DNA from: an uncultured Elusimicrobia bacterium
GTDB lineage: Bacteria; Elusimicrobiota; Elusimicrobia; Elusimicrobiales; Elusimicrobiaceae
Assembly (NCBI GenBank): GCA_945913025.1
Contig: CAMECJ010000002.1
Coordinates: 62,001-126,000 of the forward strand
Direction of reading: 5' to 3'
DNA length: 64,000 bases
Positions 21,903 through 49,840 of this stretch are shown piece after piece. Within the stretch, counting starts at the first letter, position 1. Each line of letters begins with the position of its first letter. The position numbers and the translations under genes are program-made. The notes beneath the pieces are model-generated. The model did no database searches. It saw only the letters and a list, made by a program, of their open reading frames with translations, and was not told the DNA's origin.

Positions 21903-21930
21903 AATTTATCAAAAAAAAAAAACGGGTCAA
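21903..21930 (-). promoter_or_regulatory. Poly-T spacer promoter of pilin 3 (T12)
   Basis: Minus strand: TTGACC (21925-21930), CG, twelve T, GA, TAAATT (21903-21908); spacer of 16 bases. Confidence 0.65.
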
Positions 21931-33557: not shown

Positions 33558-33585
33558 ATCGTATCAAAAAAAAAAAACGGGTCAA
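33558..33585 (-). promoter_or_regulatory. Poly-T spacer promoter of pilin 4 (T12)
   Basis: Minus strand: TTGACC (33580-33585), CG, twelve T, GA, TACGAT (33558-33563); spacer of 16 bases. Between it and the gene lie a palindrome of the ATCCCGTA/TACGGGAT type and one of the CCTGAG/CTCAGA type. Confidence 0.65.
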
Positions 33586-44939: not shown

Positions 44940-45533
44940 CTAATCTGTATAGCAACTTCCGCCGTTTAATCGTCCGGTAATACAAGCATCTGATTTTCCC
45001 ATACCTATTTTTTTGCAAACTGCGCCGGATTTATCGTCCTCACATTGGCGATGGCCATTACAATATCGTAAAACATAGGTATCACTGGAATTTCTCCGAG
45101 TTGCGCTGGGGGCATATGTACTGTCTCCGCACCCGGCATCGTGAACATAATACGACCAATTTTTTGTATTAAAAGTTTGTCCCGAAGACACAACTTGTCC
45201 ATTTTCATCAGTAAACGACAAATCCAAGTCCGCCCAAGAGTTTGCTCCGTTTGGATTTCCTCCCATTATATAGACAGAATTAGCCGCATAAATAGATTTT
45301 AACGTGGACCACGCTTCCGTCGCACGACTTTTTTCCACCGCTTTCGTGTACTGCGGCAGCGCTACCGACGATAAGATACCAATGATAAGTACAACAACCA
45401 ACAATTCTATCAACGTAAAACCTTTAGTCGCATTGCCATACTGAACTTGTTTCAGTATCCAAGCAGAAGATTTTATTTTATTAACAACTGGATTCTGAAA
45501 TAAATTCAGAATGACGACAAACAAACCTTTCAT
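44940..45533 (-). CDS. Type IV pilin-like protein with two palindromes in its leader, pilin 5
   Basis: A 197-residue prepilin; the mature part starts FTLIELLVVVLIIGILSSVA. The leader is 38 residues long and includes VVILNLFQNPVV and WILKQVQYGN, each the translation of a palindromic repeat (45488-45514 and 45438-45460). The codons at the start (MKGL) and at the cleavage site (TKGF) share AAAGGTTT, 105 bases apart. GGAGG lies before the ATG at 45533; this start is used rather than the one five codons earlier. The C-terminus CITGRLNGGSCYTD has the pilin disulfide loop pattern and resembles pilin 2. It has a poly-T promoter (45651-45678). Confidence 0.88.
   Translation of the reverse strand: MKGLFVVILNLFQNPVVNKIKSSAWILKQVQYGNATKGFTLIELLVVVLIIGILSSVALPQYTKAVEKSRATEAWSTLKSIYAANSVYIMGGNPNGANSWADLDLSFTDENGQVVSSGQTFNTKNWSYYVHDAGCGDSTYAPSATRRNSSDTYVLRYCNGHRQCEDDKSGAVCKKIGMGKSDACITGRLNGGSCYTD
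45438..45514 (-). repeat. Two palindromic repeats inside the pilin 5 leader
   Basis: ATACTGAA/TTCAGTAT (45438-45458, loop CTTGT) and ATTCTGAA/TTCAGAAT (45491-45511, loop ATAAA). The order and spacing are like one unit of the 101-bp array. Flanking direct repeats AAACCTTT lie at 45418-45425 and 45523-45530. Confidence 0.93.
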
Positions 45534-45650
45534 TTTATTTTCCTCCATTTAAAAAGGTCATTCTGAGTCGCTTCTGCTCAGGATCTACCGATTTTAACGT
45601 AATAAACCACAACCGAAAGATCCCACGCAAAAAACCTACGGAATAACCCT

Positions 45651-45678
45651 ATCATATCAAAAAAAAAAAACGGGTCAA
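45651..45678 (-). promoter_or_regulatory. Poly-T spacer promoter of pilin 5 (T12)
   Basis: Minus strand: TTGACC (45673-45678), CG, twelve T, GA, TATGAT (45651-45656); spacer of 16 bases. The best -10 match of the five. The transcribed leader (45534-45650) is homologous to that of pilin 4. Confidence 0.68.
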
Positions 45679-45899: not shown

Positions 45900-47530
45900 T
45901 TAATATATCGGATTTCCACCGTTATCCTCGTCCCTTACGCACATCCACTTTTCAACAGAAGCCCCGTAAACTACTACATGCGTGTCCTGCATATATACCC
46001 TGCAATCTTCTCCCACCTTCTGTAGAAATGTAGAAGAAGACGTATAGGCAGCCGACGGAATACCGGCGGCCCTACATCGTGTTTTGTTGGACTGGTTAGT
46101 ATCTTGGGCCTCTTTACACTGCTTTTGATAATCATCAATATCTTGCATACTCAAGTCGAGTGTAAGGTCAGAATAACGCACGGCAGGATTATCAATATGA
46201 TCTGTGTCGGTTTGGCACTTCTGGCCTTCGAGCGTAATGCCTTCACAAGTTTCCAAGTATCCCAAAGTAGATCCTTGGTAATCATTGCCATATAAGCAAC
46301 ACACTGTTTCAGCTGGAAAATTATCTGAGTTATATACCTGTGTCCAGTTTCCTGTCAGGTGATAGGCCGTATGATCACAAGAGTCAGCATCGCCGCAACG
46401 TTGGCAAAGCTTCTGAAACTGGCCTTCGTCATAACGATCAAACAAGGTCTTAGGTATCTCCGTACCGGAAAAATCACACCATGAAGCTCCAGACTGGCCT
46501 ATCGCGAAACCATACTGTGCAAAGCCACCCGGAGAGTTCCATCCCCAAAAATCACTACGCAAAGCGATATTAGGATAATCCTCTCCGTAACGAAGAGCGG
46601 CCAATTCTTTTGAAGATTTTATCCAATAGGGATATACGCAATCCCCTCCAGACTTGAAACCGCCGGCCTCTTCACAGCTTTGACAACAATTGGACGGAGA
46701 TAAAGGGGTATCGTAATCCCAATTTCCAGAAACAAGCCCGTTCGCTTTGCAGTATAATGTTAATGTACCGGCATTATCTTTATCTGCACATGTTTCCGTT
46801 GGTTCCGTCGGACACTCGCTCTCATCTTTCACATCGCAGTCATCAAAACCGCCTTCCACCCATTCGCCCGTGGTTGTATCGCACGTTACCGTTTGGGTTT
46901 GGTGGCCGCATTTATTACACTCCCTGCTTGTGGGCGGTTTCGTTCCCGTACATTCTTTCGGCTTCGGCGCACACTTCCGTCCTGCCATATCTCGTCTTCC
47001 GTACAACATTTCTCCTGGTTCGGGTTACATTCACAACTATATGGGTCAATATCGCAAGCGCCGGGAGAAGTATTCTCAGGGCCCGCACAATTTTCAGGAG
47101 ATTCCTGGTAATCCGGTTTCCCTTTTAGCTCCTCGCACGTCGGATACTCCTTGTTTAACTTACTGCAATCCTTCCCGTCGCAACAAATTCGCCCGTCAGC
47201 ATACGACAGCATTTTTAACGTGTAAGAGTATTTATCCTTTCGGGTTGCATCTATCCCGCGTCCCGCTAACGCTATCGTAAAGTTCTTCGTTTCGTTATTT
47301 TTTACAATATCCGTCATCTCGGACATCTGCGTTAAATACCGCTTGTCCAACGCACACCGTTTTTCCTGCTCCGTGCGTACGGACGCCATCAGCTCTTCCG
47401 CTTCCGTCGTTTTACGCGTTTCGATTACTTTATTAAATTTCGGCAGAACCGCCGCGGATAATACCCCTATCACGATGACCACTACCAGCAACTCGGTCAA
47501 CGTGAAGGCTTTCTTCTCGTTTTTTCTCAT
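45900..47530 (-). pseudogene. Large Cys-rich type IV pilin-like (tip/minor pilin) protein with one frameshift, pilin 6
   Basis: From ATG 47530 the frame reads MRKNEKKA, then FTLTELLVVVIVIGVLSAAV; the residue before the cleavage site is Ala instead of Gly. The pilin core leads into Cys-rich sequence (CCDGKDC, CDIDPYSCECNPNQEKCC) up to EDEIWQDG near 46978. There the frame is lost; the next one continues as KCAPKPKECTGTKPPTSREC to 45900. One missing base in GACGG-AAGTGT explains the break. Joined, the protein has about 543 residues and about 40 Cys, including a CNKCGHQTQTVTCDTTTGEW block. Its size and Cys content suggest a pilus-tip or adhesin-like minor pilin. Sequencing error is possible. GAGGAGG precedes the ATG. 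Confidence 0.78.
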
Positions 47531-47806: not shown

Positions 47807-48985
<1,179 letters not shown>

Positions 48986-49811: not shown

Positions 49812-49840
49812 ATGTTATCAAAAAAAAAAAAACGGGTCAA
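49812..49840 (-). promoter_or_regulatory. Poly-T spacer promoter of pilin 7 (T13)
   Basis: Minus strand: TTGACC (49835-49840), CG, thirteen T, GA, TAACAT (49812-49817); the spacer is 17 bases, the optimum for sigma-70, and the longest of the set. Confidence 0.65.

Follow-up and report, generated by a model that had tools for sequence, protein, structure and literature searches.

A Pilin Gene with an Interrupted Cysteine-Rich Tail and Its Probable Family of Modular Pilins with Exchangeable Tails in Gut Elusimicrobiaceae

Introduction

On the minus strand of a contig (C2) of an uncultured Elusimicrobia bacterium, a gene that opens as a pilin runs into a long cysteine-rich sequence and loses its reading frame on the way. 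This raises two questions, namely whether the two pieces form one gene and what the break between them represents, and what kind of protein the unbroken gene would encode. The locus was analyzed within a stretch of 64,000 nucleotides (the window, G000:C2:62001-126000) of a genome of 1.76 Mb in 27 contigs (G000). Our answer is that the gene is probably an interrupted copy of a multi-copy family of modular pilins with exchangeable tails, carried by gut Elusimicrobiaceae; the frame break itself is ordinary, and of greater interest is the family with its differing tails.

One Gene with a One-Base Offset

The pilin frame obtained by ORF analysis starts on the minus strand with an ATG at 47530, preceded by GAGGAGG, and ends at a stop codon at 46888-46886 after 214 aa. 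Bounded above by a stop codon at 47027-47025, another frame stays open down to the stop at 45902-45900. The region of the frame change comprises the following features:

46889-47024, minus strand: the sole stretch in which both frames are open, and hence the sole room for a change of frame
46976-46978, minus strand: frame-break point, a one-base offset, located by the ORFs and by homology

The place of the break within the overlap is set by homology, the first frame matching relatives up to WQDG (46978) and the second from about KC (46976), where reading resumes one frame over for 358 residues. The useful piece of the first frame comprises 184 aa with 11 Cys, and the piece in the second frame comprises 358 aa with 25 Cys. 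The second piece aligns along its whole length with genes of other species, uninterrupted ones included, and is matched at E ≤ 1e-5 in 22 of 101 genomes including its own (21 of the 100 others), mostly through the Cys module only; these matches, together with the lack of any further stop in 358 codons, indicate that it is coding. Across the position of the break, locus L215 of genome G042 has EVWQDGKCVPEEP within a single open frame, a relative's intact version of the junction being EVWQDGKCVP, and the same Cys module is unbroken in members from G008, G016, and G001. Since both frames are homologous to unbroken relatives, the locus is read as one gene with a one-base offset. An earlier interpretation made from the letters alone (the sequence-only reading) had placed a single break near 46976-46978 and joined EIWQDG to KCAPKPKECTG; the ORFs and the homology on both sides bear out the break, the open frame of L215 supports the join, and the comparison with orthologues that it had proposed finds the module intact in all four of these genomes.

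A Pilin Base, Cysteine-Rich Modules, and a Variable Tail

From its start to its end, the gene is composed of the following parts:

47081-47530, minus strand: constant type IV pilin base, residues 1-150, with the class III signal KKA/FTLTE (profiles and structure)
46971-47056, minus strand: first Cys module, CDIDPYSCECNPNQEKCCTEDEIWQDG followed by KC, split by the frame break (unbroken homologues in G042, G008, G016, and G001)
46836-46952, minus strand: second Cys module, ECTGTKPPTSRECNKCGHQTQTVTCDTTTGEW...C, similar in appearance to a thrombospondin repeat, with three predicted strands
45903-46811, minus strand: variable Cys-rich tail (long relatives in G029, G035, and G045)

The pilin start that had been read at 47530 is confirmed by the signal KKA/FTLTELL and by scores above the cut-offs of PF07963 (26.2 bits, cut-off 21.2) and TIGR02532 (26.6, cut-off 16.3). 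The base has the class III signal peptide with Glu5 of a type IV pilin, and its AlphaFold model (mean pLDDT 87.2), with a helix at residues 11-60 and four strands, predicts the long N-terminal helix and small sheet domain of this class. With VIA-align, the first 17 rows were all pilins or pilus subunits (one of them a PilA fusion), with Z scores from 8.3 to 4.4; the best match was PilV of N. meningitidis (Z 8.3, rmsd 2.2, 87 aligned), unrelated rows began at Z 4.4, and a Z near 8 can reflect a common arrangement. Foldseek returned nothing for the base at E ≤ 0.001; a sequence profile of the base matches solved pilins (best E 2.2e-9), in agreement with the structural matches. The pilin fold is complete by about residue 138-150, with the extra parts sitting behind it as in modular pilins, and the truncated product of 214 residues retains the entire fold.

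The sequence-only reading described about 450 residues of Cys-rich sequence behind the pilin start, and within it a stretch, CGHQTQTVTCDTTTGEW, spaced like disulfide-rich repeat modules. The richness in Cys stands, the length is closer to 425 residues since this part begins near residue 116, and CGHQTQTVTCDTTTGEW proves to be part of a module recurring in many relatives. The second Cys module looks similar to the thrombospondin type 1 repeat in its spacing CG.QT.TVTC...TG.W and in its three predicted strands; the TSP_1 profile matches neither the focal second piece nor ten relatives. The focal second piece has no Pfam match and no relative of solved structure, in both cases at E ≤ 1, and in ten members with long frames Pfam recognises only the N-terminal pilin motif (N_methyl) at E ≤ 0.01. 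Structure prediction gave a poor model for the 358-residue piece (mean pLDDT 39.1, from two sequences), which does not allow a fold to be assigned to the tail. The tail has no second match in its own genome at E ≤ 0.01 and no viral relatives in the viral contig set, and the PilY1 profile (PF05567) found no match here, nor in the control genomes, so PilY1 may still be present.

The Family and Its Recurrent Sites

At E ≤ 1e-12, all but two (G020 and G051) of the 61 genus genomes searched (Elusimicrobiaceae, G000-G060) gave a match to the pilin base, 59 in total, and it is weakly matched in five genomes of another family of the order. The titled relatives are named as Elusimicrobiaceae, Elusimicrobiales, or uncultured Elusimicrobium, are mostly labelled as MAGs, and in several cases derive from rumen or gut. 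At the DNA level, a search of 66 genus genomes found, besides the own genome, one genome with two short matches. A description of this pilin family was not found in the titles and abstracts of the literature searched.

The family members have a common pilin base of about 150 residues and differing Cys-rich tails. From 99 members, 17 that run off their stretch and two without a start region were set aside, leaving 80 distinct members; duplicates, of which a few may remain, were recognised by identical starts and left out. The frames of 72 of these 80 end in a stop codon after 343-896 aa, a range that describes frame length only, and the other 8 are shorter. The tail continues in another frame in five members (L061, which is the focal copy, L069, L074, L083, and L183), and L094 is cut short; L187, which stops inside the base, lies outside the 80 counted. 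L184 and L206 are tail-less, with 167-169 aa and no recognisable continuation. The own genome holds three family copies (on C2, C7, and C10), each with a start codon and the pilin base.

Family members recur beside the same genes across species, among them tgt (in eight genomes), ispE/trx/polA, and clpP; we take these to be the right names for the neighbours, tgt being presumably the gene of queuine tRNA-ribosyltransferase. L184 and L206 both occupy the tgt site, in two genomes. The focal gene lies at the same kind of site:

47816-48985, plus strand: tgt, the neighbour common to the focal gene and seven other members (ORF list and comparison of loci)

Separate Evolution of Base and Tail

The focal gene and its sibling on contig C7 are alike only in part, with the following block in common:

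47082-47484, minus strand: block of 403 bases identical to the C7 sibling gene

Outside this block, the first 45 columns are 73% identical and the tails are unlike, as is the upstream DNA (123 of 223 columns identical); the C10 copy is 83% alike. At least 100 identical bases are shared by 11 of 58 within-genome pairs of members versus 6 of 1833 between-genome pairs, four of the latter six linking closely related genomes whose genes are near-identical (G014/G053/G021 and G008/G016). The three own copies, from three sites, group at 100/99 in an N-terminal tree of 73 rows. In the same tree, the nearest base row came from the same genome for 35 of the 53 rows that had such a partner (18 did not follow), and from the same site for 8 of 32 rows with a partner there; where both choices existed (22 rows), ten followed the genome only, three the site only, and seven neither. 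Close species are grouped by site at tgt (L128, L144, and L146) and at serC (L136 and L145). Trees with one clade per site were rejected by the AU test, with p 2.2e-55 for tgt (six rows) and 1.7e-6 for trx-polA (five rows), for site clades chosen after the tree was seen.

Among 2080 tail pairs, 476 have a match at 1e-3 and 52 align over at least 60% of the shorter tail; among the 45 pairs from the same site, 29 have no match at 1e-3 and nine align over at least 60% of the shorter tail, one of the nine being a tandem pair. The focal tail has in common with the other tgt-site members only a module of 47 residues (in three of them), with nothing at 1e-3 in two others, and its best relative among those compared is L148, at another site in another species (38% over 242 residues). 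Exchange is not constant, given the rows that are not grouped by genome and the same-site tails that still align. The clearest sign in the sequences that a base was replaced alone is L128 at tgt, with a tail 98-99% identical to those of L144 and L146 and a base only 87% identical. The presence of a ComEC domain in the genome makes the uptake of DNA, foreign tails included, possible.

The likeness of bases within a genome might instead reflect new duplications landing in the same hot spots, without conversion between resident copies, and the stretches of G105, G035, and G049, where no family member was found adjoining tgt, fit such arrivals. We consider this the less likely reading. A duplicate of the whole gene would carry its 5' end along, yet the 5' end and upstream DNA of the focal gene differ from those of its C7 sibling, and the mismatch between tail and base in L128 occurs at one and the same site.

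Possibly Rearranged Loci and Contig Ends

In the sister species G105, whose tgt protein is 99% identical to the focal neighbour, the gene adjoining tgt is an ordinary pilin, which suggests that the focal copy may be the newer arrival at this site. The best match of this G105 pilin in the focal genome is L065 on contig C7 (72% over 897 bases), and the match on its right-hand side falls in promoter DNA that many pilins carry (82% over 264 bases with L209, 74% over 233 bases with the focal flank). A reading of G105 as an empty site with both focal flanks was rejected on these grounds, so the comparison gives no proof that C2 is correctly joined across the 403-base repeat. A chimeric join or a tail swap between C2 and C7 through this repeat is possible. 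The site in G023 and that on C7 have two downstream genes in common, with no match to the three upstream ones.

In G024, G029, and G031, contigs break off within a family gene with exactly 141 shared bases, and k141 stands in the record titles for two of these three sources. We infer that such ends are what would be expected if an assembler of that word length broke at repeats, and repeats are where MAG assemblies fail.

Two further observations concern the arrangement of pilin genes. L179 and L200 (RUG486) have tgt and polA flanks joined around one family member, and in RUG486 the contig with the other half of the polA locus runs out within the pilin base; this represents either a rearrangement between copies or a chimeric contig. 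In G105, different ordinary pilins (L257 on C94 and L253 on C75) adjoin tgt and a DJ-1-like gene. It appears that pilin genes trade positions next to conserved neighbours.

Nature of the Frame Break

The break is best regarded either as a mutation by which the tail was recently lost or as an error of the assembly at the base level, and nothing that would mark a programmed or reversible switch was found. The sequence-only reading had allowed for a second kind of on/off switch, a proposal that the locus does not support. Programmed frameshifting or slippage, by which the gene would act as a switch or yield two products, needs a clean join and the conservation of both pieces, as observed here, and is nevertheless very improbable: the overlap at 47024-46889 holds no run of five or more equal bases (the simple-sequence test covered single-base runs) and no -1 slippery heptamer (X XXY YYZ) in phase, which speaks against a switch, and relatives read the same module in one frame.

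A real and recent inactivation of the tail, after which the copy would persist as a tail-less pilin or as a donor for recombination, has close to an even chance. It is in keeping with the other four of the 80 members that have the tail in another frame, with the shortened L094 and L187, and with the naturally tail-less L184 and L206 at the tgt site; among the three shortest frames of the 111 own matches to the pilin motif, there are also one with an in-frame stop and two 5' relics, and the truncated product is predicted to keep the whole pilin fold. However, the other broken copies are found in uncultured assemblies and may be errors too, and the focal tail shows no decay beyond the single offset. 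A tail without other damage in 358 codons is also what an assembly error would leave in a gene that is intact in the cell, a reading to which we give serious weight, somewhat below an even chance. The available text of PMC11017572 documents apparent pseudogenes that arise from errors of assembly, and the titled relatives are MAGs or uncultured assemblies, as the own genome may be. Against an error of this kind, no other plainly broken gene was seen by eye in the ORF listing of the window, so the assembly is not visibly full of indels, and there is no homopolymer at the break. The break lies about 100 bases beyond the 403-base repeat, in single-copy DNA; the surrounding 241 bases occur only once in the own genome, which makes collapsed repeats unlikely at this point. 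The frame breaks and contig ends in the family call for read-level checks.

Proposed Mechanism and Comparison with Known Systems

In architecture, the gene resembles that of a modular minor pilin. In the mechanism that we propose, the complete pilin fold, about 140 residues long, would hold the secreted protein in a pilus, and the Cys modules and the large Cys-rich tail, with putative disulfides, would be grafted behind it for display. The displayed tail would most likely bind a host, food, or microbial surface, and the candidate role of tip adhesin suggested by the sequence-only reading fits the precedent of modular pilins. The pilin base would often be homogenised by recombination between the copies of one genome, with tails that differ between copies, sites, and species. 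As printed, the focal copy would give a tail-less pilin of 214 residues with no displayed tail, a product that could join the pilus without it; tail-less members occur at the tgt site in two genomes.

The modular pilins PilB and PilC of Streptococcus sanguinis combine a small pilin module with a bulky extra module, and more than 1,200 proteins in 264 architectures are counted as modular pilins in InterPro, in the available text of PMC8179133. The proteins described here are similar to PilB and PilC in having the extra module behind a complete small pilin; unlike them, their extra parts are Cys-rich, have no Pfam match where tested, and differ among the copies of one family. The comparison was made by Pfam only, whereas the criterion of that work is an extra module recognised as an InterPro domain (PMC8179133, as far as its available text goes); the lack of a Pfam match leaves room for a domain in the extra parts. 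By analogy with the vWA module of PilB, reported there as displayed on the pilus, the intact form may display its disulfide-rich tail on a pilus.

In the displacement of Rhs C-termini, the conserved core evolves separately from the variable C-terminus, and genomes differ by gains and losses (PMC2935791, available text). The base and the tail likewise evolve apart as core and tip, not at every site; in contrast to Rhs, the protein is a pilin and no dissociated tips were found by homology. Broken and tandem members aside, no orphan or dissociated tails were detected by homology in 116 downstream stretches (some genes being represented twice), a search in which diverged relics could be missed. 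At L101, a small ORF that follows the family gene's stop codon by 59 bases ends in SVYKCVKK, like some tail ends; it is a possible relic tail and was not found by homology.

The antigenic variation of Neisseria pilE/pilS offers a third comparison, since there a pilin gene is altered by gene conversion between copies, as appears to happen here. Unlike pilE/pilS, it is the 5' base that is shared and the tail that differs, all three own copies retain a start codon and the base, and the focal tail is found once in its genome at the threshold given above.

Taken further, and only tentatively, the family could form a dispersed, recombining repertoire of pilus adhesins with a homogenised base at several recurring sites, swapped Cys-rich binding tails, interrupted copies as stored or shed tails, and strain-specific sets. 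If the proposed function is true, little-studied gut bacteria would carry many new disulfide-rich binding domains on their pili and would provide a naturally occurring example of tails being exchanged on an unchanging pilin.

Other Pilins and a Putative Pilin Promoter Element

The genome contains 111 matches to the pilin N-terminal motif, a very large number for 1.76 Mb. Three other own pilins are damaged, L210 (G000:C9:20900-23200), L208, and L209, with one in-frame stop and two 5' relics among them. The following features of the window belong to ordinary pilins or to the element found near them:

44940-45548, minus strand: ordinary pilin next door (ORF list), with TTGACCCG-T12 upstream at 45659-45678
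21915-21930, 33570-33585, 45663-45678, and 49825-49840, minus strand: TTGACCCG-T sites, with T runs of 12-13

The element TTGACCCG followed by at least eight T occurs 47 times in the genome, with none for the reversed control, and 44 of the 47 sites are followed, on the same strand, by a pilin start no more than 700 bases downstream, where about one was expected. It is absent upstream of the focal gene and present upstream of the C7 sibling. TATNAT follows within 12 bases at four sites. From its sequence, the element reads as a putative -35 box with a T-tract spacer, and a length-variable pilin promoter is possible.
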